Part shown: one piece after another, positions 18,400-41,997 of the stretch | Numbering within the stretch: the first letter of the stretch is position 1 | How the letters are laid out: each line of letters starts with the position of its first letter | Source: Sulfuricurvum sp. | GTDB taxonomy: Bacteria; Campylobacterota; Campylobacteria; Campylobacterales; Sulfurimonadaceae | Direction: 5' to 3' | DNA: 41,997 nt | Assembly: GCF_028712165.1 (NCBI RefSeq) | Contig: NZ_JAQTQR010000018.1 | Location: 1 to 41,997, forward strand | Position numbers and translations under genes: made by a program | The notes under the pieces: model-generated | The model's database searches: none | What the model was told of the DNA's origin: nothing | What the model saw: only the letters and a program-made list of their open reading frames with translations

Positions 18400-18417
18400 T
18401 GAATGAAAGGGGTTGCT

Positions 18418-19674: not shown

Positions 19675-19700
19675 TCATTATATCAAAAAAGATATAATGA
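19675..19700. promoter_or_regulatory. second ModE-like inverted repeat
   Basis: Arms TCATTATATC and GATATAATGA are a perfect ten-base inverted repeat with a six-base spacer (AAAAAA), the same TTATATC-N6-GATATAA core and spacing as the site at 18372. On the minus strand one arm contains a TATAAT that would be the -10 for the gene starting at 19650. It also lies 176 bases before mop. Confidence 0.6.
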
Positions 19701-25906: not shown

Positions 25907-25935
25907 TCAATCCTTTATTTTCATACATTTTTCTT

Positions 25936-26010
25936 CGTCATCCTCGGGCTTGACCCGGGGATCCACCCCCATAAAGCAAAGCTGGATTCCCGATCAAGTC
26001 GGGAATGACG
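25936..26010. repeat. dispersed palindromic repeat element
   Basis: About 75 bases with imperfect inverted ends: the left end starts CGTCATCCTCGGGC and the right end, on the other strand, starts CGTCATTCCCGACTTG. Both arms then contain internal GC-rich stems ending in a GGAT(T)CCA segment. Elements of this kind (CGTCATTCCCG...) are common small interspersed repeats in Proteobacteria. No open reading frame is carried. Confidence 0.65.
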
Positions 26011-26027
26011 GGAAACAAATTTATTGT

Positions 26028-26450
26028 TCACCGCAAATATTCCAAATGACGATAATACGGAGAGCCTAAAAAGGTATCCAAAAGCTCTTTTGAGGGGTGT
26101 ATCAAATTTAGCATCTCTACTAAAGCATTTTTGAGGCGTATTAAATCTTTATGTATCACACTCCATAAAACATCTCCGTCTGTTCCTCGATAATCGTGAG
26201 AAATTTTATCTCGTATCCCTGCAACGCTGACCCAATCGATCTGGGTTGATATATCTTTTTTGAGATTCGGATCGATTTTTTTCGATTCTTCCCCAATCGC
26301 AATAAACAAACTAATGACACCGTTGAGCGGTTGCTGTTCATCCGCCCAAATGAATTCATCGGGTGTTTTGTATTTACCGGAGTATATCCACACTTTCTCG
26401 ATACATTCGAGCATGGTCATAATGTAGATTAGATTTTCTTCTTTATACAT
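26028..26450 (-). CDS. hepT: HepT-type HEPN toxin
   Basis: The 140-residue all-helical protein has the HepT active-site motif RX4HXY as RDKISHDY (Arg80, His85, Tyr87). HepT toxins are RNases, and their motif Tyr is inactivated by adenylylation by MntA. The gene overlaps the mntA gene by eight bases and follows it, so the two are co-translated. Confidence 0.88.
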   Translation of the reverse strand: MYKEENLIYIMTMLECIEKVWIYSGKYKTPDEFIWADEQQPLNGVISLFIAIGEESKKIDPNLKKDISTQIDWVSVAGIRDKISHDYRGTDGDVLWSVIHKDLIRLKNALVEMLNLIHPSKELLDTFLGSPYYRHLEYLR

Positions 26451-26745
26451 AGATAAAATCTTTTTGTGCGTAATGTTTGATGATCGGATTCATGTATTTG
26501 AGACTGACGAAGTCAACTTTCGGTACATGCAAATTTTGCGCTATCACATCAGAAATCCGCATAAATTCCAATCCGCTTTCGAGTTCTATGCTGCTGTCTC
26601 GCTCATAAAAAATATCAATATCGCTCTTTTCGGTTGCTTCATCGCGAGCGACGCTTCCGTAAATCCCTAAAGTTGTAATCCCATACCGGATACGAAATTC
26701 ATCTTTTTTAGAGCGGAGATAGTTTAATACGGCTTCTCGTTTCAT
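26443..26745 (-). CDS. mntA: MntA-type minimal nucleotidyltransferase antitoxin
   Basis: The 100-residue protein has the nucleotidyltransferase motif GSX10DXD (Gly30-Ser31 ... Asp42-Ile-Asp44) in the context LGIYGSVARDEATEKSDIDIFYE. MntA antitoxins transfer AMP to the HepT tyrosine. It is the first gene of the pair, preceded by AAAAGGAATTCT as ribosome site and by a TATAAT at 26784-26789. It follows the modD stop on the same strand by 51 bases. Confidence 0.88.
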   Translation of the reverse strand: MKREAVLNYLRSKKDEFRIRYGITTLGIYGSVARDEATEKSDIDIFYERDSSIELESGLEFMRISDVIAQNLHVPKVDFVSLKYMNPIIKHYAQKDFIYV

Positions 26746-26796: not shown

Positions 26797-27645
26797 TTAT
26801 AGAGGCTCAATTCTCACTTTGATATCAGCTGGCTGAGCGTTATAAGGAGATGAGGTGACGATCATATCGACACCGGTTGCGGCATATTCGGCGATATTTT
26901 TGGCACTGATTCCCCCCGTAGCGATCAGGGTAATGTTCGGATAATCGGTTCGCAATATCTGTACGGCATCGGAGAGTTTGGTGAGTGGGAATTTTTCCAG
27001 TTGGAGAATATCGGCTCCGAGGCGGGCGAATTTAAGCGCTTGGGCGATGTCTTCGGCTTCCATGACGATTTTTTTCTCAGGATTCGCTTTTTTGGTTTTA
27101 TTCAGTGCTTCGGTAAAGGCTTCATCCGCCGGAAAAAAGACGCGGTGGTAATCGAAGATGAGGATACTTTCGGAGAGTCCCAGCCGGTGAGCGACACCTC
27201 CGCCGGACTCGACCGCTTTGATGGCGATTTTTTTCGTAAACGGGGTCGTTTTACGGGTTGTCGCGACGACGATATCGGGATTGATCGAACGAGCCAATAA
27301 GACCGCTTCGCGGGTGTAGGTGGCGATACCGCTGGCATAGTCGATGAGGTTCTGGACAGATTTCCAGATACGGTGGATATTTCCCGCTTCGCCACGGGCT
27401 TCGAGAAAGACGCTTTTAGGGGGGATGAGGGTACCGGATTTCACAAATCCGTCGATCTCCAAACCGTACAGTCCGCACAGACGTACCGCCTCTTCCATGC
27501 AGGAGACGACGAGAGGGCGTTCGCGGGTGGCGAAGGTGATACGGGCACGCTGGTCCGAAATGCCAAGCGATGCGGTCGTAAGATCGCCATACGGGACGTC
27601 TTCGCTTAAAAAAGCTTCGAGCTCATGGTCATTGAGGATAATCAT
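26797..27645 (-). CDS. modD: ModD, quinolinate-phosphoribosyltransferase-like molybdenum protein
   Basis: The 282-residue protein matches the ModD branch of the nicotinate/quinolinate phosphoribosyltransferase family: LSEDVPYGDLTT, VATTRKTTPFTKKIAIKAVESGG, HRLGLSESILIFDYHR, GADILQLEKFPL and IATGGISAKNIAEYAATGVDMI. ModD proteins occur with molybdate transport genes; their reaction is not established. I use the ATG at 27645, because GGGAG lies just ahead and it gives an ATGA overlap with the methyltransferase stop; an ORF extension to 27660 exists. It is the last gene of a long operon with TonB receptors and flavin monooxygenase. Confidence 0.88.
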   Translation of the reverse strand: MIILNDHELEAFLSEDVPYGDLTTASLGISDQRARITFATRERPLVVSCMEEAVRLCGLYGLEIDGFVKSGTLIPPKSVFLEARGEAGNIHRIWKSVQNLIDYASGIATYTREAVLLARSINPDIVVATTRKTTPFTKKIAIKAVESGGGVAHRLGLSESILIFDYHRVFFPADEAFTEALNKTKKANPEKKIVMEAEDIAQALKFARLGADILQLEKFPLTKLSDAVQILRTDYPNITLIATGGISAKNIAEYAATGVDMIVTSSPYNAQPADIKVRIEPL

Positions 27646-28436
27646 GCGTTTGTCTCCCATCCGATAAATGCCCAGTTGACGGCCCGCGGCGGGCGGTTTT
27701 GTCCGACAATCACTTCACGGTAATATTGGCGTGCTTTGCTCTGTTGTTCTTCGGTTAGCTCGTGTACGCTCCAGATCAGTGACTCGACAAACTCATCTTC
27801 AGTGCTGCTTCGGACACTTCCCCGTCCTGTTTCGATGTAGTCGACGCGGGGGAGGTAGCCTTGTGAATAGAGGAGGATAGGGATATACCAGTAGTCAGGT
27901 TTTGTTTTGACCTTTTTGCCGATGGTGTCGAGGATGTTCATATCGACGAAACTTCCGCCGACTTTGTAGGTAAGGTAACAAGCTTTACGTGCATGAGCAG
28001 ACATTTTTGCTAATGCAACATCGACGTCCGAGACCTCCATCGATCGGGAAGCAACGACGATATCAATCTGCGGCAAGTGGCTCCAGTCATCCTCCCAACC
28101 GATATGATATGTTTTAATATTAGTCACCCCTTCGCGCGCGGCGTAGGCTTTCAGCTCTTCGAGCATTTGGGCGGAGAAGTCGATCGCAATGACTTCTTTG
28201 ACTTTTTTGGCCAAAGGGATGGCGAGGGTTCCAGGTCCGCAACCGATATCGAGAACGACTTCGTCTCCGCTAATGTTCATGCGGGAAATAAAGTCGTTGA
28301 CATACGGGCTATTGATGACGGAAGCCGCCATATCGGCAGATTTTTCGTCCCAGTCACTGCTGGTTTTGCCTTTGAAGTCGGTGGTGGCTTTGTGCTCACG
28401 GTACATTGCCGCAAAATCGATCGGTTGTAGAAACAT
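27642..28436 (-). CDS. class I SAM-dependent methyltransferase (copy 1, next to modD)
   Basis: The 264-residue protein has the SAM-binding motif I VLDIGCGPGTLAIPLA (about 60-75), an acidic loop at the end of beta-2 (AIDFSAQM) and motif IV around IDIVVASRSMEV. The C-terminal 90 residues are family-specific. The substrate is unknown. AGGAGATACA precedes the ATG, and the stop overlaps the modD start by four bases, so it works with ModD. It is unlike the methyltransferase at 31633-32250 except in the core fold. Confidence 0.85.
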   Translation of the reverse strand: MFLQPIDFAAMYREHKATTDFKGKTSSDWDEKSADMAASVINSPYVNDFISRMNISGDEVVLDIGCGPGTLAIPLAKKVKEVIAIDFSAQMLEELKAYAAREGVTNIKTYHIGWEDDWSHLPQIDIVVASRSMEVSDVDVALAKMSAHARKACYLTYKVGGSFVDMNILDTIGKKVKTKPDYWYIPILLYSQGYLPRVDYIETGRGSVRSSTEDEFVESLIWSVHELTEEQQSKARQYYREVIVGQNRPPRAVNWAFIGWETNA

Positions 28437-28457
28437 TGTATCTCCTAAGATATTACC

Positions 28458-28463
28458 ATTATA
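28458..28463 (-). promoter_or_regulatory. possible internal -10 box for methyltransferase-modD
   Basis: TATAAT on the minus strand, 21 bases before the methyltransferase ATG and just after the 24-base palindrome. It may allow separate expression of the last two genes. Confidence 0.4.
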
Positions 28464-28470
28464 CTGAAAT

Positions 28471-28494
28471 CTGCGGGAGATGCATCTCCCGCAG
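28471..28494. other. perfect 24-base palindrome between TonB receptor and methyltransferase
   Basis: CTGCGGGAGATG and its exact reverse complement CATCTCCCGCAG abut with no spacer. As RNA it gives a strong GC hairpin, but no T-run follows on either strand (ATTTC on the minus strand). It could be a weak terminator or attenuator after the receptor gene, or an operator in the -35 region of the internal promoter. Confidence 0.5.
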
Positions 28495-28519
28495 TGTTGA
28501 AAAAATGCTCTTTTGATGT

Positions 28520-30598
28520 TTAAAATGTGTATCGGATATTGCCGAAAACGACGCGTCCGGCTTCAGGATACCCATAGCTGTAATAGTAATTGCGATCCAG
28601 TACATTGTTGATGCCTAAATCAAAGGTGAAATTTTTGTTTGCACGCAATGATGCTTTTGTATTCCATACTGAGACGCAGCCGGTCGTGCCATAGGTATTT
28701 TTTGTATTCGGTGCTGTTCCGGTCGTACCGATAGCAGCGTAACGTTCTGAGTCATATTCGTAGGTATTGAACCATGTTAAATTCTCAATAGGGGTATAGG
28801 CTGCTGTCACAATGAATTTGTTTTTTGGAACATCGACAATTTTCTGACTCTCATCGACTTCATTCGTCATATTCAGATAGGTATAGCTTCCCTCAAATGA
28901 GAGCGATTCCAAGGGTGCATAGACACCGGAGATTTCGAACCCTTTTTGGGTCACTTTTCCTACGTTTTGGAGTTGCTGCTGCTGTGTGTAGGTCGAACCG
29001 CTTTTGTACCATAAAGGGATGTATGCGCTTTGGATGTAATCGGATATATCGGCATAAAATACGGCTCCCGTGATCGATGCCGTACCGAATGATTTTGTTC
29101 CGCCGATTTCGTAATTGAGTGTTTTTTCGGCATTTAACTCAGGGTTCGGGACATACGTATTAAATTTAAACGAATAGCGGTCTTTGATCGATGGAATACG
29201 GCTTTTTCCGGATATCCCGCCATAGTATGAGAGGGTGCTGTCTATGGTGCCGCTGAGTTTGATCATAGGGTTAAATGAGGATGTATCGCCGTGGGCAAAC
29301 TCTTTATCCGTTGTGTATCCGGTTGTCGTATTCTGGCTGGTACCTGCAGCATCGTTATAATAGTTGGTGTTGGGTTTTCCGTATTGGGTATTTTGGGCGG
29401 TATCGATTTTTTCTTTATCGTAGCTCGCTCCGAACGTGAGTTTGAGAGCATCCGAAAAGATGTGGGTATCTTCTATCCCTAATGAGCTGATGGCATCTTT
29501 CATCTCATAGACGGCTGTTTGATTTTGTCCCCCTTCTTGATGGTCGTCTATTTTATAGTGGAGTGCCATTTTAAGGGTATTGGCGGAGGAGAGTTTCACA
29601 CCGGTTTCGACGGAGGCTCCTTTGGTGTATTCGTCATACCAGCTCGGGTTGCCGACACCGCCGTATGCGTAGGTGTCATAGAGGCCGTTATTGGTGTAGA
29701 TGGCAAGAGAGTTTTGGAATTTGTCGTAAAAGACGCGGCTTTTAAGATACCAGTTTCCAAAATCCGTTTTGGAAAGAAAGTAGAGGCTTTGTTTGTCCCA
29801 ATAGCGCCATTGCCAAAAACCGCGGCCTGATAAATTTATCGCTTCATCCGGCGGGACACCTTTGTCGGAATTTTGGCGGATATAGTTGATGGCGTATTCA
29901 TCGGTGGAGTTTGGAGTATAGCCCGCTTTTAGATTGAGTTTTGCATCCGAGGCATAGGCGTTATTGCGATCACCGCCATCTTCGTTAATGGCTCTTTTAA
30001 CGGTAAAATCATCGGAAAGGGGATAAGTATCACGCTGCGTTTTAGAAGCTGATGCCTGAACGTAATAGCTCCCTTGATTGCTTCCTAAATTGATGTATTC
30101 GGTTCGTCCGTTTCCGCTGAAAAATCCTGCTCCCATATCTCCTTCGAAGGATTTGCTCGGTTTTTTGGTAACGAGATTGATCGCACCGGCAAAAGTGTTG
30201 GCTCCGAGAAGCGGAGATGTGAGACCTTTGGATACTTCGATTTCAGAGAGGTCAAACGTTGTGAAGCGGGAAAAATCGACGTAACCGTCATACGGCACAG
30301 CGATAGGAATACCGTCGATAAAGAGCGGTGCATGTTTAACGTCGAATCCGCGGATCATAATCATCTGCTCATTACGGGCACCGAAGTTTTGGATCGTAGC
30401 ACCCGGCAAAAGGTTGATGGCTTCGACAATCGTTTTTCGTTCATAATCTTGGATTTGTTGTGCATCGATCACCGTAATGGTCGCATCGGATGAATCCGAT
30501 GTATCGGTTACATCAACTTTCCCCAGTTCAAAAACGCTCTCAGCGCTATAGAGGGCCGATACGGCTGCAAGTGATAGTATGAGTAGTTGTTTCTTCAT
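28520..30598 (-). CDS. TonB-dependent outer-membrane receptor (receptor 1)
   Basis: The 692-residue protein has a signal peptide (about 19 residues), a plug domain (about 35-160; AINLLPGATIQNFG, MIRGFDVKHAPLFIDGIP, SEIEVSKGLTSPLLGANTFAGAINLVTKKP), then a beta-barrel ending in the outer-membrane signature NIRYTF. Such receptors import metal chelates or cobalamin using TonB energy. It starts 14 bases after the flavin monooxygenase gene with an AAGGA ribosome site and is followed by methyltransferase-modD. Its barrel is not obviously closer to receptors 2-4 than to unrelated receptors. Confidence 0.92.
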   Translation of the reverse strand: MKKQLLILSLAAVSALYSAESVFELGKVDVTDTSDSSDATITVIDAQQIQDYERKTIVEAINLLPGATIQNFGARNEQMIMIRGFDVKHAPLFIDGIPIAVPYDGYVDFSRFTTFDLSEIEVSKGLTSPLLGANTFAGAINLVTKKPSKSFEGDMGAGFFSGNGRTEYINLGSNQGSYYVQASASKTQRDTYPLSDDFTVKRAINEDGGDRNNAYASDAKLNLKAGYTPNSTDEYAINYIRQNSDKGVPPDEAINLSGRGFWQWRYWDKQSLYFLSKTDFGNWYLKSRVFYDKFQNSLAIYTNNGLYDTYAYGGVGNPSWYDEYTKGASVETGVKLSSANTLKMALHYKIDDHQEGGQNQTAVYEMKDAISSLGIEDTHIFSDALKLTFGASYDKEKIDTAQNTQYGKPNTNYYNDAAGTSQNTTTGYTTDKEFAHGDTSSFNPMIKLSGTIDSTLSYYGGISGKSRIPSIKDRYSFKFNTYVPNPELNAEKTLNYEIGGTKSFGTASITGAVFYADISDYIQSAYIPLWYKSGSTYTQQQQLQNVGKVTQKGFEISGVYAPLESLSFEGSYTYLNMTNEVDESQKIVDVPKNKFIVTAAYTPIENLTWFNTYEYDSERYAAIGTTGTAPNTKNTYGTTGCVSVWNTKASLRANKNFTFDLGINNVLDRNYYYSYGYPEAGRVVFGNIRYTF

Positions 30599-30612
30599 TT
30601 TTTTTCCTTGAG

Positions 30613-31620
30613 TTAAATATGGGGTCTGATGTCAGCGTTGAAAACACTCAGCATAAGGCGATTTTGATTTGCATCGGAAGATGAAGGTTTTAGGACGAGA
30701 TGGATGTTATTAAGCTTGCTTTGGATGGTTTTAATGGTTGCGATACACTCATCTGGCGTTCCGAGGATAGCGCTGTCAAAAAACTTTTGTCCGTCGAAAA
30801 AGGCTTCACGCTCTAATAAAATCGCATCGTATTTTTCTTGATCGTATATAGGCTGCGGGATTTGGGCAGAGACCGCGCGCATCGATTTGACGAAATGATC
30901 GACTGCCGGTCTGGCTATTGAGTATGCTTCATCATAAGATTCAGCGACGCAAAAGACCCGCATGAGGACAATCTCAGGGTCAATTTTCGCGATGGAACGA
31001 TAGAGATTTTGCGCTTCGACACACTCTGCGATACTTGCCCCCTGTGACATAAGCAATCCATAACCGTGTCGGGCGGCAAAACGGATCGTATCGGGATTGG
31101 CAAAGGTAGCGACGAAAAAGGGGATACGCTTTTGGAAGGGTTTAGGTTGGAGGTTGACATTCTCAAAAGAGGCAAATGCACCGCTGTACGTGGAATTATT
31201 GGTGTGCAAAAGCTCATCGACTGCTTCAGTTGTCTCAAACATCGCATTGCGGAGATTATCGGGATCACGGGTGAAATGTTTCGTGTCCGGAGCGAATCCT
31301 CCTTTGGCAAATCCGGCATTGATCCGTCCGCCTGAGAGGTTATCGAGAACGGCGATACTCTCTGCCAGACGCACCGGATGATAAAATGGGGCGAGGAATC
31401 CTGCCGTACCGAGGCGAATGCATCCGGTACGTGCAGCCGCATACCCGATCATAGCTGCGGGATCGGGGATGACGCTAAAGCCGTTAAAATGGTGTTCTCC
31501 AAACCAGGCTTCGTCAAAGCCGAGTTGATCCGCCAGTTCGACCAGACGAAGCTGTTCCATGATACTTTCTTGGACGCTTCCTTGAAAATGTTCGGTAAGA
31601 CAAAAAAGACCTATCTTCAT
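30613..31620 (-). CDS. luciferase-like flavin monooxygenase (LLM copy 1)
   Basis: The 335-residue protein has the bacterial-luciferase TIM-barrel pattern: ELADQLGFDEAWFGEHHF, IRLGTAGFLAPFYHPVRLAESIAVLDNLSGGRINAGFAKGG split over two strands, and QPKPFQKRIPFFVATF. LLM enzymes use FMNH2 and O2; the family includes NtaA-type monooxygenases that break metal-chelating amino-polycarboxylates. No signal peptide is present, so it acts in the cytosol. It lies 12 bases after the methyltransferase gene and 14 before receptor 1. A role in opening an imported chelator is a hypothesis from context. Confidence 0.88.
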   Translation of the reverse strand: MKIGLFCLTEHFQGSVQESIMEQLRLVELADQLGFDEAWFGEHHFNGFSVIPDPAAMIGYAAARTGCIRLGTAGFLAPFYHPVRLAESIAVLDNLSGGRINAGFAKGGFAPDTKHFTRDPDNLRNAMFETTEAVDELLHTNNSTYSGAFASFENVNLQPKPFQKRIPFFVATFANPDTIRFAARHGYGLLMSQGASIAECVEAQNLYRSIAKIDPEIVLMRVFCVAESYDEAYSIARPAVDHFVKSMRAVSAQIPQPIYDQEKYDAILLEREAFFDGQKFFDSAILGTPDECIATIKTIQSKLNNIHLVLKPSSSDANQNRLMLSVFNADIRPHI

Positions 31621-31632
31621 AACTACCGCTCC

Positions 31633-32250
31633 TTATTTGGTTATAACAGCCCAAAAGCCGCTTTCATCGTCTATAATATTAAAATGAGCCGGTCTGAGTG
31701 AAGCTAGAATACCCGGGAGTGCATCACGTTCCGGTTTGATTCGATCTTTGAACGAGTTTCGCCAGTCGGGATTCTTTTCACTCATCGTTTGGACGATGCT
31801 ATCACGCAGCTTGGCATTGCCGAAACCGCCGCCGACGTATGCCATTCCTCCGGGTTTTAGAACACGAATGATTTCACTGTAGGCTTTGTGCCAATCTTCC
31901 CAAAACGGCGATGATCCTCGACTGATAACAAGATGGACATCTTCGTCAATCAACGGGATAGCGTGAATGTCTCCCCTAATAAAAGCACTGCGATCTTGCA
32001 GATTATGTGCAGCAGCATATCCGGATGCCAGATTGAGCATCTCCTCAGACTGGTCGAAAAAGCTGATATGCAAATCGGTGATATTGGCTAGAGCGATCCC
32101 AAGAGCACCCGTACCGCATCCTACGTCGAGACATCGACCGGAGGTAATAGCAGTTTTATCTACGATTTGTTCAGCGATCACGGGATAGATCGGAGCAAAT
32201 ACATTGCGGACGATTTGATCAAAACTTTGCGGATTGGTTGAATTTTTCAT
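31633..32250 (-). CDS. class I SAM-dependent methyltransferase (copy 2)
   Basis: The 205-residue protein has SAM motif I CLDVGCGTGALGIALA (about 39-54), the acidic SFFDQSEEML after beta-2 and the post-motif region IIRVLKPGGMAYVGGG, typical of Methyltransf_11/25. The substrate is unknown. Its ATG overlaps the stop of substrate-binding protein 1 by four bases (ATGA), and the LLM gene follows after 12 bases. It is shorter than the methyltransferase next to modD and not closely related. Confidence 0.87.
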   Translation of the reverse strand: MKNSTNPQSFDQIVRNVFAPIYPVIAEQIVDKTAITSGRCLDVGCGTGALGIALANITDLHISFFDQSEEMLNLASGYAAAHNLQDRSAFIRGDIHAIPLIDEDVHLVISRGSSPFWEDWHKAYSEIIRVLKPGGMAYVGGGFGNAKLRDSIVQTMSEKNPDWRNSFKDRIKPERDALPGILASLRPAHFNIIDDESGFWAVITK

Positions 32251-33320
32251 GATTTTGGTGTTGCTCCGTCAATTTTTTTCTTGTATTCGATCGTCGGATG
32301 AAGCACTTCTTGGAGCTGTGCATCGGTGAGATTGACATTCATAAACAGACGATAGAACTCTTTGGTCTCTTTTTTGATATCGATTTTGGTCTCTTTCGGA
32401 TAGAGGGCATTCATCAGCCATTTCAGACCCATAATCCGCATAAACGACGGCGGACGGTCAAACCAGTTGAAGGGAGCTTTGGGAATCAGATAAACACGGT
32501 GATTTTTGATCGCATTGATATTGCCCCAAATCGGGAGGGTGTTAATCTTGTCATAAAACATTTTCTCTTGGACGATCATGACATCAGGGTTATACGCTAA
32601 AACGGTCTCCATAGACATCTTTTCAAATCCTTTGTGGTTGGAGGTATGGCATCGGTGAACATCCACATCTCCGGCGAGTTTGAGAAGTTGAACGTGGATT
32701 GAGTCGTCACACTCGGTGCTAAGACCGTCCAGACCTTCGGCATAATAGACTTTCGGACGTTTTTCGACGGGCACTTTTGCGACTACATTCCGAACATCAG
32801 TAAATGTTTTTTCGGTATAGGCGGCGAGTTTGTTTCCCCGTTCTTCTTTGTTGAGTGCTTTACCTAAGAATTTAAAGATATTGGTATAGTCCTCGATACT
32901 CTCATCGACGGCATACACAAAAGGGGCATTGAGGATTTTCAGCTTTTCAGCCTCTTTTTGGTTGAACTCATTGGTATGCTGCCACATCAAGATCAAATCC
33001 GGTTTAGCCGCCAGAAGGATTTCGAGATTGGCACTTTGTCCGGCTCCGAAAACTCTCCCGATGGTGGGAAGCGTTTTCATGCTGGGATGCAGATAAGGGA
33101 GATTCTCTTCATCGATATTGAAAATCCATCCTGTCAGCAGTGTCGGATCCATCGCATAGAGGGCATACGAACCGTACGGTGAGGGAGCATAAACTTTTTT
33201 AGGGTTTTCAGGGACGTCGACTTTGCGCCCCAACATATCGGTAACTTCACGCGCAGAGGCTTCAAATCCGAGGGAAACGCTCAAAAGAGCTGCCAATAAT
33301 AATGTTTTCATCTCTCTCAT
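32247..33320 (-). CDS. periplasmic metal-chelate substrate-binding protein (SBP 1)
   Basis: The product has a signal peptide and the class III two-lobe fold of FecB/BtuF-type proteins: REVTDMLGRKVDVP, ANLEILLAAKPDLILMW, MSMETVLAYNPDVMIVQ and NWFDRPPSFMRIMGLKWL. It ends in a KKETKEFYRLFMNVNLTD segment shared with SBP 2 and SBP 3. The start is uncertain: the frame extends to a TTG at 33326 overlapping receptor 2, but the ATG at 33320 (357 residues) has GGA upstream at a usable distance. No ABC permease or ATPase is adjacent. Candidate ligand-site Cys/His are in STECDDSIH and HRCHTSNH. Confidence 0.88.
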   Translation of the reverse strand: MREMKTLLLAALLSVSLGFEASAREVTDMLGRKVDVPENPKKVYAPSPYGSYALYAMDPTLLTGWIFNIDEENLPYLHPSMKTLPTIGRVFGAGQSANLEILLAAKPDLILMWQHTNEFNQKEAEKLKILNAPFVYAVDESIEDYTNIFKFLGKALNKEERGNKLAAYTEKTFTDVRNVVAKVPVEKRPKVYYAEGLDGLSTECDDSIHVQLLKLAGDVDVHRCHTSNHKGFEKMSMETVLAYNPDVMIVQEKMFYDKINTLPIWGNINAIKNHRVYLIPKAPFNWFDRPPSFMRIMGLKWLMNALYPKETKIDIKKETKEFYRLFMNVNLTDAQLQEVLHPTIEYKKKIDGATPKS

Positions 33321-33322
33321 GT

Positions 33323-35404
33323 TCAAAATTCCATCGTGAGTTCAGCACCGAATGTACGTCCGCGATCGTAGTAATAGCCTGTCGTATATCGAGTAGCATA
33401 TTGATCATTTGTCAAATTTCGTCCATAAAGCTTTATCGTTGCGTTAGGATTGTTAAATGGTGCTTTATAGATTATGTTTGCATCAATGCGGGTGTAATTG
33501 CCAAGATCGAGTCCAGTTGTTGTACCTGGTGACGCAGTCGATGAACTCCATCCTGTTTTATGATTTGCTGAAATATTTGCACGGTAGTTTTCCCACTCTT
33601 GACCGATAGAAACAATATAAAGATCTTCTGGAGTCGAGATGCCGACGCTGTCAGTTGTAGTACCGTCATACGATGTGGAACTGTTGTGCAGCATATGTGT
33701 CAAGCCTATTTTATAATTGGTGCCAAAATCAAATTTACCTTTTACAAGTAATTCCAATCCATCACGTTTTGAATCGGCCTGGGTATAGTAATAATAGGTA
33801 TTTCCATCAAGTAAATAGGTATTGGATGTCTGAGATTTAGTATTATTGATTTTGACGTTAAACCAAGTCAAAGCAGGCCTAAACTCTTTTAGCAGTTTGG
33901 CTTCGAATGTAGCTTCGATACGTGTTTGAGATTCCGGATCCAAAGAAGCCGTACCGTAAATGGAAGGATCGGCTTTAACATCGAAATCCCCTTGTGTTCC
34001 CTGAGAACCTTTGTAATAACGTGCATTTAAACTGTATTTGGGTGTAATATCCCATTTGGTACCCATAGCAAATACTGTTGAAGGCGGCATATCATAATCG
34101 GGTAAATAGGTTAATGACGTTTTATAAAGATGTTTCGTATCCTGTCGATAACCTGCATCAATTGTTAATGCATTATCAAACAACCCTTGTTCGACTGAAA
34201 CTCCATACCCTGTGACTTTTGTATCCGAAGAACTATTGCTGCTTTGTCCGTTGCTTCCTAAAACGATATCGGAAGCCGATTGCATTCCGAGCATTATTTT
34301 GGTGTCTCCATACTGAATGTTATGGCGTATACTATGACCTGAAGTCTCTTCATAATAATTGCTAGCAGTTGTATCTAGGACGGCAGTTGTCGTAGCCGTC
34401 GCAAATTTACTATCATATTCAGATTGTGAATATTTTGTAGTGAAATAATTTATTAGCGTTGTATGATGCTCATTCCACACCATTGAGGCATCTGCAGAAA
34501 ATAGATGAGTAGTTGTCGGATCATAATACCATTCTGATATATCTAGCGTTCCGTTCGTTTTAACACCCCTTTGCATTTCAAAACGACCTGTATCGTTATA
34601 GCCCATCAATTTAATACTAAAACGTCCTATGTTAAGTCCGGCATTGATCATCGTACTATTGGCTTGTTGACCGTCGAACCATGTATCCAGACTTGGACGT
34701 CGCATACCTGATTTCATTCCTCCGATATATCCGTTGATACTGCTGTCACCTAAAACCAAACCGGTGTAAAAACTGGATTTTGTAGCTGTTGGCTGACCGC
34801 CTACCGCTTTTTCGGCACCTGCATTTAACGTCAACATTGTTTTTTTAGGCTGTTTGGTTCGAATGATAATGAATCCTGTGTTTAGACCCGCTCCACTATT
34901 TGAACCAGCTATATTAATCGAGGGACCCAGAGGTAAGGAGGTAGAGCCACGTACGATTTGAATTTGTTCGATTGCAGTGATCGGAATTTTTAACAAGATA
35001 CGATCGGTAATTTTTGGCAGAATCGCACCGTCTATGATATAAGTAAAGCTTCCACCACCTCTGTCATTTACAAAATATGGATTTTTACGTCCTTGGTAGG
35101 TGACATCAAATCCAACTGATCTATCAATGAGATCGAGAACGTCTCTAGGAGCTAAATTTTGAATATCTTTTTCTGTATAAATTTCTGTACCCGCTTCAGC
35201 AGTACTTTCAACCCGATAGGGATTTGTAGGGCTTTTTGGATCAAGATAGTCATGCTCGAGTATCGTCGATGCGGTGACGTTGACCGGATCGAGTGAACTG
35301 CTAGTCGCATCGGCAGCAGCAAGAGCCGATAGCGGAGAGAGAACCAATGCAGCTACAAAGCTGATGGCAACCGTTTTTGTAATTGAGTTTTTAGTCATCT
35401 TCAT
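33323..35404 (-). CDS. TonB-dependent outer-membrane receptor (receptor 2)
   Basis: I use the ATG at 35404 (693 residues), which has AAGGA six bases upstream; the ORF can be extended to 35446. A signal peptide ends near ALAA. The plug (about 50-190) has VLDLIDRSVGFDV, YIIDGAILPKI and IEQIQIVRGSTSLPLGPSI; the barrel ends in ELTMEF. It is the first gene of the downstream operon: receptor 2, SBP 1, methyltransferase, LLM, receptor 1, methyltransferase, modD. A ModE-like site lies 30-57 bases upstream. Receptor function is clear; the ligand is not known. Confidence 0.9.
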   Translation of the reverse strand: MKMTKNSITKTVAISFVAALVLSPLSALAAADATSSSLDPVNVTASTILEHDYLDPKSPTNPYRVESTAEAGTEIYTEKDIQNLAPRDVLDLIDRSVGFDVTYQGRKNPYFVNDRGGGSFTYIIDGAILPKITDRILLKIPITAIEQIQIVRGSTSLPLGPSINIAGSNSGAGLNTGFIIIRTKQPKKTMLTLNAGAEKAVGGQPTATKSSFYTGLVLGDSSINGYIGGMKSGMRRPSLDTWFDGQQANSTMINAGLNIGRFSIKLMGYNDTGRFEMQRGVKTNGTLDISEWYYDPTTTHLFSADASMVWNEHHTTLINYFTTKYSQSEYDSKFATATTTAVLDTTASNYYEETSGHSIRHNIQYGDTKIMLGMQSASDIVLGSNGQSSNSSSDTKVTGYGVSVEQGLFDNALTIDAGYRQDTKHLYKTSLTYLPDYDMPPSTVFAMGTKWDITPKYSLNARYYKGSQGTQGDFDVKADPSIYGTASLDPESQTRIEATFEAKLLKEFRPALTWFNVKINNTKSQTSNTYLLDGNTYYYYTQADSKRDGLELLVKGKFDFGTNYKIGLTHMLHNSSTSYDGTTTDSVGISTPEDLYIVSIGQEWENYRANISANHKTGWSSSTASPGTTTGLDLGNYTRIDANIIYKAPFNNPNATIKLYGRNLTNDQYATRYTTGYYYDRGRTFGAELTMEF

Positions 35405-35433
35405 GTTTTTCCTTAAGTTAAAATGCATAAATA

Positions 35434-35461
35434 TTAACTGTATCATTATTGATATAACGAT
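35434..35461. promoter_or_regulatory. ModE-like site ahead of the receptor-SBP-LLM-modD operon
   Basis: The right arm GATATAACG is identical to that of the perfect operator at 18389-18397. After exactly six bases (ATTATT) the other arm is TTAACTGTATC, which keeps TATC and matches six of eleven positions. It lies in the 108-base gap between SBP 2 and receptor 2, the only intergenic gap of any size in this part of the cluster. Confidence 0.6.
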
Positions 35462-35512
35462 TTTGTTAATGTATGCAACAAATGTTCTTTATCTATACCG
35501 TATTACGTTGAA

Positions 35513-36544
35513 TTAATTAAAAAAGTGATCATACTCCTCATCAGAAAGTGAATAATCGTAAAACTTTTTATAGAACTTTTTTGTCTCGATTTTTAAATCA
35601 ATATCATCCATTTCTTCAGGGTACAATATTTTACTCAACCATATGAATCCTAGGATAGATTCAGGCGAAGGTCTGTCCCACCAAAATGTTCCGATCGGAG
35701 CGCGATAGATCGCTTTGTTTTTATGCGCTTTCAGATTTTTAAAAGAGGGGTTATTGATGAGTTCATTCGTTGGAGAACTCGAACTTTTGTTGGTTGATAT
35801 GACAATGATATCTGGGTTCCAGATCGACAATACTTCAGCTGAAACGGTCCCTTTTATCGGTAGCTCTGAAGCGACATTTATTCCACCGCTTGCACGAATG
35901 AATTCATCACCCCACCATTGTTTATTTTCACTGCTAAGTCCGCCGGAACCGGAAGTATAAAATACTCTTTTACGATCAGCGGGTTTAATTTTTGAGACTC
36001 TGGCTTCGATGAGGTTCATATTCGTCTGCCAGTATTTAATCAACTCTTTGGCTTTGTGTTCTTTGTGAAGAATGGTCCCGACATGCAAAAACTCCTCTAA
36101 AAGAGATGATATGCTGTGTTTGCCAATTCCAAGAGTAAATACCGGTATATTCATCGCTTTGATCCGATCGTTTGTAGGAATTGAAGTGACACCGACAAAA
36201 ACAATATCCGGATTTAGTTTTAATAAAGACTCTAAATTGACGTCATTAAATGTCCCGACACTTTTTATATCTTTGAGACTTGGGTAGACGTTAATAAATT
36301 GCTGGAATCTGTCTATACTAGGCTCTGCAACGATTGTATTCGCACCCATAAAAAGGGCTATTTCCTGAGAAGCTCCGCCGTAACAGGTGATAACTATTCT
36401 GTCCATTTTTTTAGGTATACAAACATCTTTACCGCTATAGTCTTTAATGCTTTTTTCGCATTTGTTAGATTTTTCCGTCGCAAGTAACCCTGTACTGATG
36501 ATAGAGAAAATAAGCAATGATTTAGTCAGTAAAATACGCATCAT
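35513..36544 (-). CDS. periplasmic metal-chelate substrate-binding protein (SBP 2)
   Basis: The 343-residue protein has a signal peptide (about 22 residues) and class III SBP features: KDYSGKDVCIPKKMDRIVITCYGG, VNLESLLKLNPDIVFVG, LSIWNPDIIVIS and FWWDRPSPESILGFIWL. The C-terminal KIETKKFYKKFYDYSLSD matches the other two SBPs. The aromatic FWWDRP corresponds to NWFDRP of SBP 1. The ATG overlaps the receptor 3 stop by one base (TAATG). It is the last gene of the upstream transcription block; the 108-base gap follows. Confidence 0.88.
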   Translation of the reverse strand: MMRILLTKSLLIFSIISTGLLATEKSNKCEKSIKDYSGKDVCIPKKMDRIVITCYGGASQEIALFMGANTIVAEPSIDRFQQFINVYPSLKDIKSVGTFNDVNLESLLKLNPDIVFVGVTSIPTNDRIKAMNIPVFTLGIGKHSISSLLEEFLHVGTILHKEHKAKELIKYWQTNMNLIEARVSKIKPADRKRVFYTSGSGGLSSENKQWWGDEFIRASGGINVASELPIKGTVSAEVLSIWNPDIIVISTNKSSSSPTNELINNPSFKNLKAHKNKAIYRAPIGTFWWDRPSPESILGFIWLSKILYPEEMDDIDLKIETKKFYKKFYDYSLSDEEYDHFFN

Positions 36545-38694
36545 TAAAACTTATACTGTACCGATGCAAAAACAGCTCGTGGAGAGCCAACAGTATAGGT
36601 GGTTTCAGGAACGATATTGATTTCCGATGCTGAAAAGGTAGAGATGTATTTTTTATCCAAAAGGTTAGTCGCAGACAAAGATAAATCTAATGAATGACCG
36701 CCATCTAAAGCAATTTCTTTATTTATAGAGAGGTCTACAACATAATAAGGATCAACGCTGTATTGACCTAATGTATCGACATATCGTTTTCCTACATATC
36801 GAAGTATCGGAGCTATTTTGTATCCCATAAAATCATATTCGGCCGAGATGTTTCCAAAAAATTTCGGCACATCAGGATGTTGATGCCCTTTGCATGCTAT
36901 ATAAGCATTTGAAGCTGATTGGATATCGGTTGTAAAGGCATATTTATTGTAGGTGGCCGCAGCACTCAGAAGCAAGTTTGGGAGAAGTTTGTAGCTTGTG
37001 CCGATTTCCAGGCCGTAGGATTCGGCTTCTGCCGTATTCTGGGCGTAGGTTTGATTTAAAACCGGATCATAAAAACTCCCCCCTACATTTTTAACCAAGG
37101 AGTAAAAGAGTGTAGAGCTAATCGAAAATTTCTCCCCCTCATAGCTATATCCAAGATCAAAATTATCAGATACTTCCGGTTTCAACGCTGCCCACATCTT
37201 TTTAGCTATATCATCACTAAGGCTTGTGCTGAACCCACTGTAACTGAGTGTATTCCAGTTGCGACCATAGCTGGCTTTTATATTCGAAGAAGTATCCAAA
37301 AAGTGGGTGAACCCTATGTTGGGCAAGAAGACTTCATAATATTGTGCTGGTAAAGCATAGGAAACAGTACTGGCTTGAGAGAGAGCCTCCTCATAGCTGA
37401 CATCCCCGATACCGGTTGTTTTATAAGTTACAAGAGACGGCGAAGATAGCCATAAATATTTAACACCTGCTTCTACGACGGTATTTCCGAATGTCTGTTC
37501 ATACGTTAAAAAAGGGGCGTTAAAGATATGGTTTTTTTCAACTCCTACCAGTCTGCTCCAACTACTGAATGCCAAAGTGCCGGGTGTTCTTAGTTTTTGA
37601 CTTGTCGGAGGTCCGGGAGGTTCATCTTCTTGATACCAATAGCCTGCTTTTAGAGTTGCATCACTCAGTTTGGTTTCATACTCGACGACACCGCCATAGG
37701 TATTATGCTCAACTAGCCAATCTAGGACTTTCGTTCCGTTGGTAGAGTAGCTATGCCCTTTATCATTTAAAAAATAGGGTCTAAACGCGATGGATGATTC
37801 CGATGTTAACGGGATTTTTAGCTTTCCGAAGAAGGTGTAGGTTTGAAAATCTTGTTTATTGTAATCATAATAATCCGAAGAAGCCGGATTGGTTGTCTGG
37901 TAATCTAAATCTCTATAAGTGTTTAGATCTTTGCTTTGTGCATAGGTCAAACCTTTAAAATTATGACTTTTTTGATCATTATACATACCGTAGAGCTCCC
38001 ACTCTACAGGTTGACTTGATGTACTTGCTATTCCCATCTCAAAGTTTTTTCGATCCGGTGATTTACCTTCTCCTTTCCATTTGTCCGCTTCTGTTAAAGA
38101 GCCGGAGACGAAGACTTTAGCCTTACCGTAAAGCTCACCGCTATCGATTCGAATATAGGATTTTGAAAAATTATCACTGCCTATCGATTGTTTTAGAGTA
38201 GTTTCAAAGGTATCAGCAGGTTTTTTCATTTTCATATCAACCATACCGTTATCACTGCCGTATCCAAAGCCGCTATCAGCTTTTATAGCCCCTTTTTCTA
38301 CACTGATACTGCTAATATTTTCGATATCGACCATAGTAGCGAGTCCGCCTCCCGGACCGATCCCCTTAAGTGGTAATCCTTCTAATGTTTCACCGATATT
38401 ACGGTCTGATTTTCCCCGAATTTTATGGGTTATGTTTATACCGAACGGGTCATTGGTCCGTATGTCAACACCGGGCTCAAGTGAGATAGCTTTATAGGGA
38501 CTAATCAGTTCGGCACTGCTAAAAATTTTTATCTCTTTGGCGGAGGCGACATTTTTTGAACCGATGGTAGAATCTTCTATTTCCTGTGTATCGACATTAA
38601 CCGCGCTCAACTCTTTTTGCACAGTTTCAGCATAAAGTTGGATATTACAAATGACAATCGATGCTGCAACGGACAGGGCAATTCTTTTATTCAT
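36544..38694 (-). CDS. TonB-dependent outer-membrane receptor (receptor 3)
   Basis: The 716-residue protein has a signal peptide (about 22 residues). The plug shows SLEPGVDIRTNDPFGI, HKIRGKSDRNIGETLEGLPLKGIGPGG, ISSISVEKGAIKADSGFGYGSDNGMVDMKMKKP, and the barrel ends in SVQYKF. The C-terminal part resembles receptor 4: ALKPEVSDNFDLGYSYEGEKFS against VLKPEMADNFELSATYNNNGFH, and LLDKKYIS against IFNEKYIG. It overlaps the globin gene by four bases (ATGA) and SBP 2 by one base. Confidence 0.9.
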   Translation of the reverse strand: MNKRIALSVAASIVICNIQLYAETVQKELSAVNVDTQEIEDSTIGSKNVASAKEIKIFSSAELISPYKAISLEPGVDIRTNDPFGINITHKIRGKSDRNIGETLEGLPLKGIGPGGGLATMVDIENISSISVEKGAIKADSGFGYGSDNGMVDMKMKKPADTFETTLKQSIGSDNFSKSYIRIDSGELYGKAKVFVSGSLTEADKWKGEGKSPDRKNFEMGIASTSSQPVEWELYGMYNDQKSHNFKGLTYAQSKDLNTYRDLDYQTTNPASSDYYDYNKQDFQTYTFFGKLKIPLTSESSIAFRPYFLNDKGHSYSTNGTKVLDWLVEHNTYGGVVEYETKLSDATLKAGYWYQEDEPPGPPTSQKLRTPGTLAFSSWSRLVGVEKNHIFNAPFLTYEQTFGNTVVEAGVKYLWLSSPSLVTYKTTGIGDVSYEEALSQASTVSYALPAQYYEVFLPNIGFTHFLDTSSNIKASYGRNWNTLSYSGFSTSLSDDIAKKMWAALKPEVSDNFDLGYSYEGEKFSISSTLFYSLVKNVGGSFYDPVLNQTYAQNTAEAESYGLEIGTSYKLLPNLLLSAAATYNKYAFTTDIQSASNAYIACKGHQHPDVPKFFGNISAEYDFMGYKIAPILRYVGKRYVDTLGQYSVDPYYVVDLSINKEIALDGGHSLDLSLSATNLLDKKYISTFSASEINIVPETTYTVGSPRAVFASVQYKF

Positions 38695-39305
38695 TGTTTC
38701 GAATCTCCTGCTTTTAGGAGTTCTTTTTCGACATCACTCCACGGGTGACGTTTAATTGCATCCATATTGGTTCTTCGATTGATCATACGGATAGAAAGCG
38801 GTTCAATCCAGTTCCAAAACTCTTGGAGATGCTCTTGCGGGAATGCTATGTCTTTAAGTGTTTTTTTGTACATTGCCAGCCAGATTTCCCGATCGTTCTC
38901 GTTGATAGGGATTTTAAAATGGCGCATACGCAGATGTGGTTCTCCATGCTGTTCGGTAAAAATTTGATCTCCACCTAGTGCTTCGACAAAAAAATCGGCA
39001 CTTTTATCGATTGCCATCTTAAGAGCTTCTTCATTTCTAGGAAAAAGATTTCCAACCTTGGTTTTAAGCAACAGGGTATGATGATGCAAAACCATGTCAC
39101 GGATTTTCACTTCACCGAGCGCTTTAAAGATTTTATTCGATGGAAAAGGGACCGGAGGATAGATAAAATCGATCATCGCATCAACAGTACGGATATTTTC
39201 ACCGCCAAAACGTGGTTTATTCGGTTGCTGCTCCATTTGCCCCATTTGGGTAAAAGAGGTGATACGGCCATTGTGGCAACTGGTAGTGATATTTTTTTCA
39301 TTCAT
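38691..39305 (-). CDS. group II-like globin encoded in the TonB receptor operon
   Basis: The 204-residue protein has an N-terminal extension of about 55 residues, then a globin domain: IRDMVLHHHTLL, LFPRNEEA, SADFFVEALGG, QHGEPHLRMRHFKIPI with proximal His129, REIWLAMY with a Trp at the G8 position, and the end FWNWIEPLSIRMINRR. It should bind haem and possibly O2 or NO. The B10 position, usually Tyr in group II, appears to be His. It overlaps LLM copy 2 and receptor 3 by four bases each. The paralogue at 18418 lacks the proximal His. Confidence 0.85.
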   Translation of the reverse strand: MNEKNITTSCHNGRITSFTQMGQMEQQPNKPRFGGENIRTVDAMIDFIYPPVPFPSNKIFKALGEVKIRDMVLHHHTLLLKTKVGNLFPRNEEALKMAIDKSADFFVEALGGDQIFTEQHGEPHLRMRHFKIPINENDREIWLAMYKKTLKDIAFPQEHLQEFWNWIEPLSIRMINRRTNMDAIKRHPWSDVEKELLKAGDSKQ

Positions 39306-40297
39306 TTTTTTTCCTTTAATTGAAATTTAGAAATGATTTCAGATGAAAATAACTCAAGAGAATTCCTTAAATTTTCTTCCGGCAAGTATCCGAAAAATCC
39401 GGAAAGGGCATTGAGATAGTTCATCCCTCCTGTAAGTTCTTTGAGTTCACTTATGCGTTCTCTACAGGTTTCGGGGCCTCCTGCAATGACCATTTTATTG
39501 TAAAAATTTTCAGGTTCAAGCTCTTCCTCTTTTATTCTTCCGCCTTTTGTTAACCCGACATTTTTGAGTCTTTCGGTTAATTTTAAAATGGTTGGCCAAA
39601 GTTCTTTTTTTGCACTTTTATCACTTTGGCTTACATATACAAAACGACCTATCGGTACGTTTTTCACATCACCTCCCGCATTTGTGTAGGTATTGAGTGC
39701 TTCCATTACATTGAGCATAGAAGTAATACCGTGCATAATGACATTGTGATTGTTTTGGGCCGACCATTCGAGGATCTCTTTTGTATAACTTCCGACATAT
39801 ACCGGTGGATGTGGCTTTTGTATCGGTTTTGGTTGGATAAAAATATTTTCATCTCCCACACAAAGCTCCTCATTACCAAATGCATTAAGTACAAGATTGA
39901 GATGTTCGGTAAACTCATCTTTAGTGTAGCGTTCAGTCGTTCCGAAGATATTGGAATAGCGACGATTTCCACCTCTGGATATTCCGAAATCAACTCTCCC
40001 GTTTGAGATTAAATCTAATGTCGCTAACTCCTCGGCTAAACGAATCGGGTGATACAGAGGTAAAATAAGAAGCGAAAATCCAATCCTAATTTTTGTTGTC
40101 GTAGCTGCAATGGCAGATGCGGCAACGATAGGTGACAGACAAAGTCGTCCATCACTGTTTTTTCCATTTTGAAAGTGCTCTTCATTCAACCATAATGATT
40201 CAAATCCAAGCTTTTCAGCATATGAGGCCAGCTCTATTATTTTGGATTGTCGATCGAGTTCAACTCCACCGCCGCAACCGGATAGTCCAAATTTCAT
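39302..40297 (-). CDS. luciferase-like flavin monooxygenase (LLM copy 2)
   Basis: The 331-residue protein has the luciferase-family TIM-barrel pattern: ELASYAEKLGFESLWLNEEHF, IRIGFSLLILPLYHPIRLAEELATLDLIS, RVDFGISRGGNRR, QPKPIQKPHPPVYVGS, and a C-terminal AGGPETCRERISEL. It has no signal peptide and is expected to use reduced FMN in the cytosol. It is clearly diverged from LLM copy 1. The ATG overlaps the SBP 3 stop and its stop overlaps the globin start, both by four bases. Confidence 0.88.
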   Translation of the reverse strand: MKFGLSGCGGGVELDRQSKIIELASYAEKLGFESLWLNEEHFQNGKNSDGRLCLSPIVAASAIAATTTKIRIGFSLLILPLYHPIRLAEELATLDLISNGRVDFGISRGGNRRYSNIFGTTERYTKDEFTEHLNLVLNAFGNEELCVGDENIFIQPKPIQKPHPPVYVGSYTKEILEWSAQNNHNVIMHGITSMLNVMEALNTYTNAGGDVKNVPIGRFVYVSQSDKSAKKELWPTILKLTERLKNVGLTKGGRIKEEELEPENFYNKMVIAGGPETCRERISELKELTGGMNYLNALSGFFGYLPEENLRNSLELFSSEIISKFQLKEKK

Positions 40298-41349
40298 TTT
40301 ATAGCTCCTGATGGTGTCGGTTGTAGAATGTCAGTAAGATCTTGATCGCTAAGTTTGTACTTTACAAAATGTTCATAAAAGGCCTTGGTTTCTTCCCTGA
40401 TATCTAACTTGTTAAAATATTCCGGATAAAATGTTTTGGCTGCCCATAACACCATAAGCGGCTGTTCGGATGTGCGATATGCCCAAAGATGCATACCGTG
40501 TGGAGAAACAAAGACCTGCCGATTTTTAACTGCATTAAGCGTTGAAAATTTAGTATTTTTGTATAAACTATCAACATCATTTGGATTGCTTAGAACGATG
40601 ATGTCAGGATTCATTACAATAATCTGTTCGGCAGAAAAAGTGAATTTTTCTATTTTTCGAGTAGAATCACTTAAGCTGATTCCGCCAGCTTTCATAACCC
40701 ACCAATCTACGATTAAATGAGGTGTTGTCATTGTTTTATAGTCGAAGTAGAGGACTTTTTTCTTCTCTTTCGATGGGATTTTATTAATGATTGAGTGAAC
40801 ATAGGAGAGTTTTTGATCAACATAGCGGTTGTACTCAACGGCTTTGCTTTTAACTCCCATAACTTCACCTAAGAAAAGCATAATTTTTTTAATGTCTTTT
40901 TCTTCTCTCCATTGTAATGAGGCCACATTTAGCCCCTTTCCTCGCAATATTTTTGCTACCATAGAATCCATTGTAAAAATAATTTGCGGATTGTCTTTTA
41001 ATAACAACTCAACATTTACTCCCGAATCCATACTATCCAGAAGATAGGTAGACGTTTTGGAAGCATTGGGGGCCAGTGCATCATAGAGTTTAGATGTAAT
41101 AAGGGAGTTTTTAAATTTACTAGGGAGAGCATTTGTGATAGCATCCCCCTTCCCAAGTGCAAAAATAAAGCTACTTAAGACAGGAACAGCCCCTATTGTG
41201 ACAATATTTTGTGTTTTATTCGGGACGGATACCGGATTATTGTCCGTATCATAAATAATTTTTGTATTACCGGCGATAGCACTCACATAAAATACACTAA
41301 GTAATAGCGCTACTTTGAGTATCGCCGATAGTAGAGATAGAGAATACAT
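40294..41349 (-). CDS. periplasmic metal-chelate substrate-binding protein (SBP 3)
   Basis: The 351-residue protein has a signal peptide (about 26 residues) and the class III SBP layout: IIYDTDNNPVSVPNKTQNIVTIG, VNVELLLKDNPQIIFTM, IIVMNPDIIVLS and HLWAYRTSEQPLMVLWAAKTFYPE. The C-terminal REETKAFYEHFVKYKLSD matches SBP 1 and SBP 2. The WDRP-type motif of the other two is changed to WAYRT, suggesting a different ligand pocket. The start overlaps the receptor 4 stop by one base (TAATG). Confidence 0.87.
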   Translation of the reverse strand: MYSLSLLSAILKVALLLSVFYVSAIAGNTKIIYDTDNNPVSVPNKTQNIVTIGAVPVLSSFIFALGKGDAITNALPSKFKNSLITSKLYDALAPNASKTSTYLLDSMDSGVNVELLLKDNPQIIFTMDSMVAKILRGKGLNVASLQWREEKDIKKIMLFLGEVMGVKSKAVEYNRYVDQKLSYVHSIINKIPSKEKKKVLYFDYKTMTTPHLIVDWWVMKAGGISLSDSTRKIEKFTFSAEQIIVMNPDIIVLSNPNDVDSLYKNTKFSTLNAVKNRQVFVSPHGMHLWAYRTSEQPLMVLWAAKTFYPEYFNKLDIREETKAFYEHFVKYKLSDQDLTDILQPTPSGAIK

Positions 41350-41997
41350 TAAAATCTCGCACCGACAGAAAAGACAGCTGCAAACGGAGCCCCCGCCATA
41401 TAAGAAGTAGCGCCGTTTAATGAGAGGTCATTGGTGCTAATGATTCCGATATATTTTTCATTAAATATATTGAGCAAACTTGCATTAAGTGATATCTCTT
41501 TAAACGAAAGAGCATTATCGAATGTGTAACTTGCATGTAAATCTGCAACTGTATATGAATCCACTTTTTGTGTATTGATGGCATCACCGTATCGTGAATC
41601 AGAATAGCGAACAACCGGTGTTAATGAAAAATTATGATTTTGGTAGGTTGCACCCAGTTTCACTAATAATTTTGGGATATCAGGGAGCTGTTTGCCATTG
41701 GTGGCAAGTGTTTGTGTTGATGAAACTACAGTATCACTATCAAACTTTGATATGGTGTAAGAGGGTGAACAAAATAGTGAAAGCTCTGGTAAAGCAGTAT
41801 ATGACACTTCAGCTTCTGCACCAAGAGCATGAGCTTTTCCAGTACTTATATTATAGTTTTGTGCGGCAATGGTATCATAAATATTGAGTTCCTTATCGGT
41901 ATAGAGAGAGTAAAATAAAACCGGTTTGAAATGAAAGCCATTGTTGTTATAGGTCGCGGAAAGCTCAAAGTTATCTGCCATTTCCGGTTTTAAAACA
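41349..41997 (-). CDS. TonB-dependent receptor, C-terminal part (receptor 4, cut by window edge)
   Basis: The frame is open to the right edge, giving about 215 C-terminal residues of a beta-barrel that ends in VFSVGARF, with a terminal Phe as in outer-membrane proteins. Alternating strands such as LFCSPSYTIS, VKLGATYQNHNF and YTVADLHASYTF are typical. It resembles the C-terminus of receptor 3. The plug and signal peptide lie outside the window. It is transcribed into SBP 3 with a one-base overlap. Confidence 0.88.
   Translation of the reverse strand, partial: VLKPEMADNFELSATYNNNGFHFKPVLFYSLYTDKELNIYDTIAAQNYNISTGKAHALGAEAEVSYTALPELSLFCSPSYTISKFDSDTVVSSTQTLATNGKQLPDIPKLLVKLGATYQNHNFSLTPVVRYSDSRYGDAINTQKVDSYTVADLHASYTFDNALSFKEISLNASLLNIFNEKYIGIISTNDLSLNGATSYMAGAPFAAVFSVGARF

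Follow-up and report, generated by a model that had tools for sequence, protein, structure and literature searches.

Nitrogen fixation is limited by the supply of molybdenum, and Azotobacter has molybdophores, azotochelin and protochelin, to which, to our knowledge, no receptor or processing genes have been assigned; nor are we aware of any receptor in the outer membrane that takes up a molybdenum complex. A search of the open full-text literature, with subscription papers outside it, gave no description of a TonB receptor for the uptake of molybdate, of a molybdophore or of molybdenum. Here, we describe a gene cluster of Sulfuricurvum sp. in which TonB-dependent receptors (TBDRs), class III substrate-binding proteins (SBPs), luciferase-like monooxygenases (LLMs) and methyltransferases (MTs) lie together with genes of molybdate transport (mod). 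It is found on contig NZ_JAQTQR010000018.1 (C49 in our numbering, positions 1 to 41,997, apparently the full contig and hereafter the window), from a genome of 2.7 Mb that is 99.94% complete. The cluster probably serves uptake under molybdenum starvation, with ModE controlling a TonB-dependent import of complexed molybdenum (or tungsten) that supplies nitrogenase.

Of the systems described so far, MolBC-A of Haemophilus influenzae (HI1470-1472) is a molybdate/tungstate importer whose molB gene is repressed by molybdenum (PMC4031551). The FecCD permease of our locus has MolB (HI1471) as its closest solved relative and the SBPs match MolA, but the described system comes without TonB receptor, LLM or methyltransferase, and MolA takes bare molybdate at low affinity. 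With the ModABC/ModE regulon the locus shares the operon itself (modA, modB, a modC-like gene, modD, modE, a Mop-like gene and E. coli-type ModE boxes); receptors of the outer membrane, TonB and another importer come on top of these. The architecture of receptor, TonB, class III SBP, FecCD and FecE is that of the TonB-FecBCDE siderophore systems (FecA, FhuA or CfrA with CeuE- or YiuA-type SBPs), whereas the genomic and regulatory context here is molybdenum, not iron. Chelators that bind molybdenum have been described, with a mention of excreted aminochelin (PMC3528336). In the genome paper of the Zeitz epsilonproteobacterium, which carries one of our loci (L114), modABCDE and TonB are listed apart and TonB is assigned to iron (PMC4674564).

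A receptor block inside the mod operon

The preliminary description of the window had read a run of four TonB receptors, three FecB-like SBPs, two luciferase-like proteins, two methyltransferases, a globin and modD from the letters, and Pfam and NCBIfam found all of these families on the minus strand. Inwards from the contig end at 41997, which cuts the first gene, these are TBDR4 (41349-41996; the C-terminal 215 residues of a receptor, TonB_dep_Rec_b-barrel in Pfam), SBP3 (40294-41349; Peripla_BP_2 36.2 bits; PDB matches 4ovk, 4pag and 4ino, MolA weak), the luciferase-like flavin protein LLM2 (39302-40297; Bac_luciferase 142.8 bits), a truncated-haemoglobin-like protein (38691-39305; Bac_globin 52.8 bits), a complete TBDR3 (36544-38694; plug and barrel), SBP2 (35513-36544; Peripla_BP_2 89.7 bits; MolA HI_1472 among the top PDB matches, 7.7e-26), a complete TBDR2 (33323-35446; plug only, 30.9 bits) and SBP1 (32247-33326; Peripla_BP_2 82.3 bits; 4pag 2.9e-67, MolA 1.9e-16). 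They are followed by MT2, the class I S-adenosylmethionine methyltransferase of the receptor block (31633-32250; Methyltransf_25), LLM1, an LLM of the flavin mononucleotide type that we use as marker of the block (30613-31620; Bac_luciferase 190.5 bits), a complete TBDR1 (28520-30598; plug and barrel), the class I methyltransferase MT1 (27642-28436; Pfam) and modD, which is quinolinate phosphoribosyltransferase-like (26797-27660; TIGR01334 282.9 bits, cut-off 178.85). The close packing also held, with overlaps of 1 or 4 bases at 7 of the 12 junctions; MT1 and modD overlap by 19 bases, and the remaining junctions are gaps of 12, 14, 66 and 83 bp.

Contrary to the earlier claim, modD is not the last gene of the run. 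Beyond a HepT/MNT (ribonuclease/nucleotidyltransferase) pair and an open reading frame (ORF) of no known family, the minus strand continues with a small Mop/TOBE-like gene (24981-25382; TOBE 18.2 bits and TIGR00638 20.6 bits, both sub-threshold; syntenic with modB in those congeners that were read), modB (24317-24991; TIGR02141 234.5 bits, cut-off 182.6) and a gene for a modC-like ATPase (23445-24320; TIGR02142 220 bits, under the cut-off of 285, named for its operon position). Reading the window as a complete unit was likewise rejected, because the other half of the cluster is on another contig. None of the genes of the window encodes an inner-membrane pump that would serve its SBPs. Contig C15, from the same assembly, has at its end aroE, modE, modA, an OprD porin, a globin, TonB, an SBP, a receptor, FecCD, FecE, a second SBP and a receptor N-terminus. 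We place C15 next to the window by synteny, across a short gap, because the N-terminal 244 residues of TBDR4 at the end of C15 and the C-terminal 215 at the window end both align to a single intact gene of 753/759 residues in two congeners (G009 and G019), and because the order FecCD-FecE-SBP-TBDR4-SBP3-LLM2 is unbroken in G019.

Comparison of gene orders shows where the block sits. One congener (G035) carries modE-modA-OprD-globin-TonB-SBP-TBDR-FecCD-FecE-SBP-TBDR2-SBP1-MT2-LLM1-TBDR1b-u244-(small gene)-TauE-MT1-modD-mop-modB-modC, with modA at 165.8 bits for TIGR01256 and modE also identified. Congeners that lack LLM1 have compact versions: modE-modA-OprD-MT1-modD-mop-modB-modC (G013 and G002), modE-modA-MT1-modD-mop-modB-modC with one extra ORF (G023) and modE-modA-mop-modB-modC (G010 and G020). 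The block of receptors, SBPs, pump and LLM is therefore an insert at one position of the mod operon, between OprD/modA and MT1-modD-mop-modB-modC, with MT1 and modD as part of the operon core. As plain mod operons without receptors, SBPs or LLM keep both genes, they lose the role of specific parts of a chelate pathway that had been given to them.

Some features of this region vary between genomes. The HepT/MNT pair and the adjoining ORF (25379-26745) split the mod operon of the window, separating modD from the Mop-like gene, whereas modD and mop overlap directly in G035; in G003, ORFs of the same two lengths as the pair (140 and 100 residues) adjoin mop. In several genomes the interval from TBDR1 to MT1 repeatedly holds a TauE/SafE exporter gene, a small DUF4405-like gene and the gene of a Pfam-less protein of ~240-270 residues (L028:10723-12923 and equivalents). 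In G009 (L216, contig C4, 1-5599) a second modE directly adjoins a lone TBDR4-SBP3-LLM2 cassette, a mini-locus of mobile appearance.

ModE-type boxes at the receptor genes

The distribution of ModE-type boxes is the strongest line of evidence, because it is independent of the neighbourhood of mod genes. In the first scan, all loci were scored against the E. coli ModE consensus ATCGNTATATA-N6-TATATANCGAT (PMC545781) over its 20 specified bases, with the expectation taken from first-order shuffles. Sites scoring at least 16/20 numbered 27 against 1.3 expected, and nearly all were intergenic. A symmetric pattern, CGTTATAT-N8-ATATAACG, which was shaped after that scan, was then allowed at most 2 mismatches in ten whole genomes of seven genera; 38 of its 54 genome-wide sites fell in these loci, where 0.9 would be expected by length.

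In the window genome the predicted boxes precede modA, OprD, TonB (inside the annotated start), TBDR4, a receptor-SBP pair on a third contig (C76), a globin gene and a molbindin gene, and TBDR2 has a weak ModE-like site (12/16) upstream. The C76 pair lies away from the main locus (L022, 289-3584) with its box 80 bp upstream. A plug-domain search found 17 receptors in the genome. All 6 of those on C15, C76 and the window are in units with ModE-type boxes, to which inner genes would belong by their spacing; the other receptor genes that were checked show no upstream box above 11/16, a check that covered only part of those truncated at a contig end or interrupted by a stop. The genome also has a full-length modE (L023:732-1508, with HTH_1 and TOBE above cut-off).

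Elsewhere in the window a perfect box (18374-18397, 0 mismatches) lies just upstream of a plus-strand gene for a truncated haemoglobin (18403-18933; Bac_globin 30.1 bits). A symmetric box with 2 mismatches (19676-19699) lies between the gene of a small membrane-like protein and a plus-strand molbindin gene with two TOBE domains (19876-20292; PF03459 104.2 bits in 2 stretches). Globins appear repeatedly in the predicted ModE regulon, with three in the window genome. Control by a riboswitch for B12 or the molybdenum cofactor (Moco) was rejected, since Rfam gave no match in the window or the C15 end.

A MolB-like pump, recurrence and nitrogen fixation

In PDB comparisons, the FecCD permease has MolB HI1471 (2nq2) as its top match (3.2e-60), followed by FhuB (7.1e-47), HmuU (1.6e-45) and BtuC (9.6e-37), which places it nearer to MolB than to the iron, haem or B12 permeases. 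The SBPs match MolA HI_1472 in such comparisons, and in the SBP profile comparison MolA is third, behind two proteins without assigned ligand. The structural model of SBP1 (predicted local distance difference test, pLDDT, 77.6) is nearest to 4pag of Sulfurospirillum deleyianum (Z 31.3, root-mean-square deviation 3.1, 315 residues aligned), with MolA fifth (Z 22.4, 4.2, 297 aligned) and little different from nearby iron and nickel SBPs. SBP1 and its relatives (SBP1/SBPa) share the conserved motif FNWxDRPPSFMR and a pair of invariant cysteines, neither seen in the MolA alignment, a further difference from MolBC-A that suggests another ligand. The entry 4pag, a solved structure without assigned function, is itself a member of the SBP1/SBPa group.

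Across the phylum we sampled 397 genomes of Campylobacterota, of which 39 have an LLM1 homologue at E<=1e-50. In families f1, f6, f9 and f20 the set of LLM1, FecCD, FecE, TBDR and SBP lies within 20 kb of at least one of modA, B, C, D and E; Sulfurospirillum diekertiae JPD-1 and S. cavolei UCH003 are among its named carriers. The gene order that had been proposed as a search key is not constant, and it is the set that recurs beside mod genes. These varying orders argue for selection for staying together, although the cases are not independent because of shared ancestry. The homologous clusters were found not to lack modD and ModE sites, a lack that the preliminary description had named as a ground for abandoning its proposal; with mod genes recurring beside the cluster and ModE-type boxes concentrated there, its idea of a molybdenum-linked TonB/SBP uptake system gains support. 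Genomes of f11 and f14 have an LLM1-like gene without the cluster, and the gene calls of two genomes (G401 and G236) are incomplete. Relatives of LLM1 beyond the phylum are ~26-38% identical, and the receptor/SBP/FecCD block was absent from the flanks that were read. Plasmid pFER3 of Paracoccus ferrooxidans (L193, 5929-15818) carries a TonB receptor, an MT1-like methyltransferase (40%), FecCD (50%), FecE, an SBP, a second ABC set and a DUF364/DUF4213 heavy-metal-chelation protein, with no mod genes in the stretch read; it may be a relative outside Campylobacterota.

NifD was found above cut-off in 73 of the 397 genomes. Of the 24 genomes whose LLM1 reaches E<=1e-79, 20 encode it, against 53 of the 373 others (Fisher 1e-12, uncorrected for kinship). 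Within the genus, nifD is present in 10/10 genomes with LLM1 against 15-16 of 27 without (one-sided p 0.009-0.015, some of the metagenome-assembled genomes being incomplete). The cluster sometimes stands beside nifHDK, with nifD within ~20 kb of the set in three genomes (G248, G414 and G419). The block thus appears to occur mainly in nitrogen-fixing species.

Proposed mechanism and competing explanations

We propose that scarce molybdate would relieve repression by ModE, and that this derepression would turn on modA, the OprD porin, the globin, the dedicated TonB and several TonB-dependent receptors with their partner SBPs, alongside ModABC. It would extend to LLM1, MT2 and a single inner-membrane pump, the MolBC-like FecCD/FecE. 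A complex of molybdenum (or tungsten), produced by other organisms, would cross the outer membrane through the receptors, and the SBPs would pass it to the shared FecCD/FecE pump. LLM1 and the methyltransferases would probably act on the ligand, setting the metal free for the iron-molybdenum cofactor (FeMo-cofactor) and Moco. The model of LLM1 (pLDDT 85.6) matches the flavin monooxygenase RslO1 and bacterial luciferases. Membership in the NtaA type, as had been suggested for the flavin enzymes, does not hold, since TIGR03860 (NtaA/DmoA) has a cut-off of 279.7 bits and LLM2 reaches 32.1, with LLM1 not listed. The methyltransferases match general models only. No condensation domain of non-ribosomal peptide synthesis (NRPS) was found in the genome, in a search limited to NRPS; a chelator, if there is one, is therefore probably foreign or made by another route. 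In this the locus would differ from the Azotobacter molybdophores, with which it would share the idea of taking up molybdenum as a siderophore-type complex for nitrogenase.

Several points weigh against import of a molybdenum complex. The sequence itself identifies neither the ligand nor the metal, and homology to MolBC-A requires no organic ligand because MolBC-A transports bare molybdate. In the model, the SBP fold comes about as near to iron-siderophore and nickel-binding SBPs as to MolA. LLM enzymes usually require O2 and a flavin reductase, and no flavin reductase was seen in the cluster. One genome of Helicobacteraceae (G165) has the set with no mod gene within 20 kb, a ModE-like box being present, and nifD is missing from a few genomes with LLM1.

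The main rival is an iron-chelate system under ModE control. Mo-nitrogenase has a high demand for iron too, so that ModE could tie iron supply to molybdenum status, with ferric xenosiderophores as the cargo of the receptors. The hidden Markov model matches of the receptors are to siderophore and haem families, the modelled SBP folds resemble YiuA, CeuE and FeuA, and the nif association would fit iron demand as well. We nevertheless regard it as unlikely, because the block is inserted into the mod operon and the permease resembles MolB. That no Fur-like sites were found at the locus is a weak point against it, since the same pattern matched none of the genome's other receptors either and so gave no positive control.

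In an account that needs no organic chelator, molybdate or thiomolybdate might itself be what the receptors and the MolBC-like pump handle, while LLM1 and TauE handle sulfur released from thiomolybdate or an unrelated sulfur compound. Homology to MolBC-A (PMC4031551) and the recurrent TauE/SafE gene fit such a scheme, as do the hosts, which are sulfur bacteria, given that thiomolybdates arise with sulfide (PMC3528336). Large or scarce complexes are, however, the usual substrates of TonB receptors, the presence of several distinct receptor-SBP pairs in one locus suggests several ligands, and the LLM and methyltransferase would be hard to account for if the ligand were inorganic, so that we find this account quite doubtful. 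More improbable still is a mosaic in which exchangeable cassettes of receptors, SBPs and enzymes, some unrelated to molybdenum (e.g. acting on organosulfur compounds in the case of the LLM), were gathered by recombination around a shared MolBC-like importer. Receptor content does vary among strains, a search of 60 genomes gave LLM2 in just 3, each from the window's own genus, and the lone cassette beside a modE copy in G009 is of the kind expected; against this, ModE-type boxes precede several individual receptor and SBP genes, including the separate C76 pair.

If import of a molybdenum complex is what the locus does, it might, more tentatively, represent the first TonB-dependent molybdophore pathway, in which ModE-controlled receptors and a MolBC-like pump would bring in foreign molybdenum (or tungsten) chelates and the LLM and methyltransferases would dismantle the ligand for nitrogenase. 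The locus offers named candidates that can be tested in strains of completely sequenced Sulfurospirillum (S. cavolei UCH003 and S. diekertiae JPD-1), and it ties in the SBP structure 4pag, solved and as yet without a function. On the molybdophore reading, MolBC-A would be part of a wider family of importers of molybdenum complexes.

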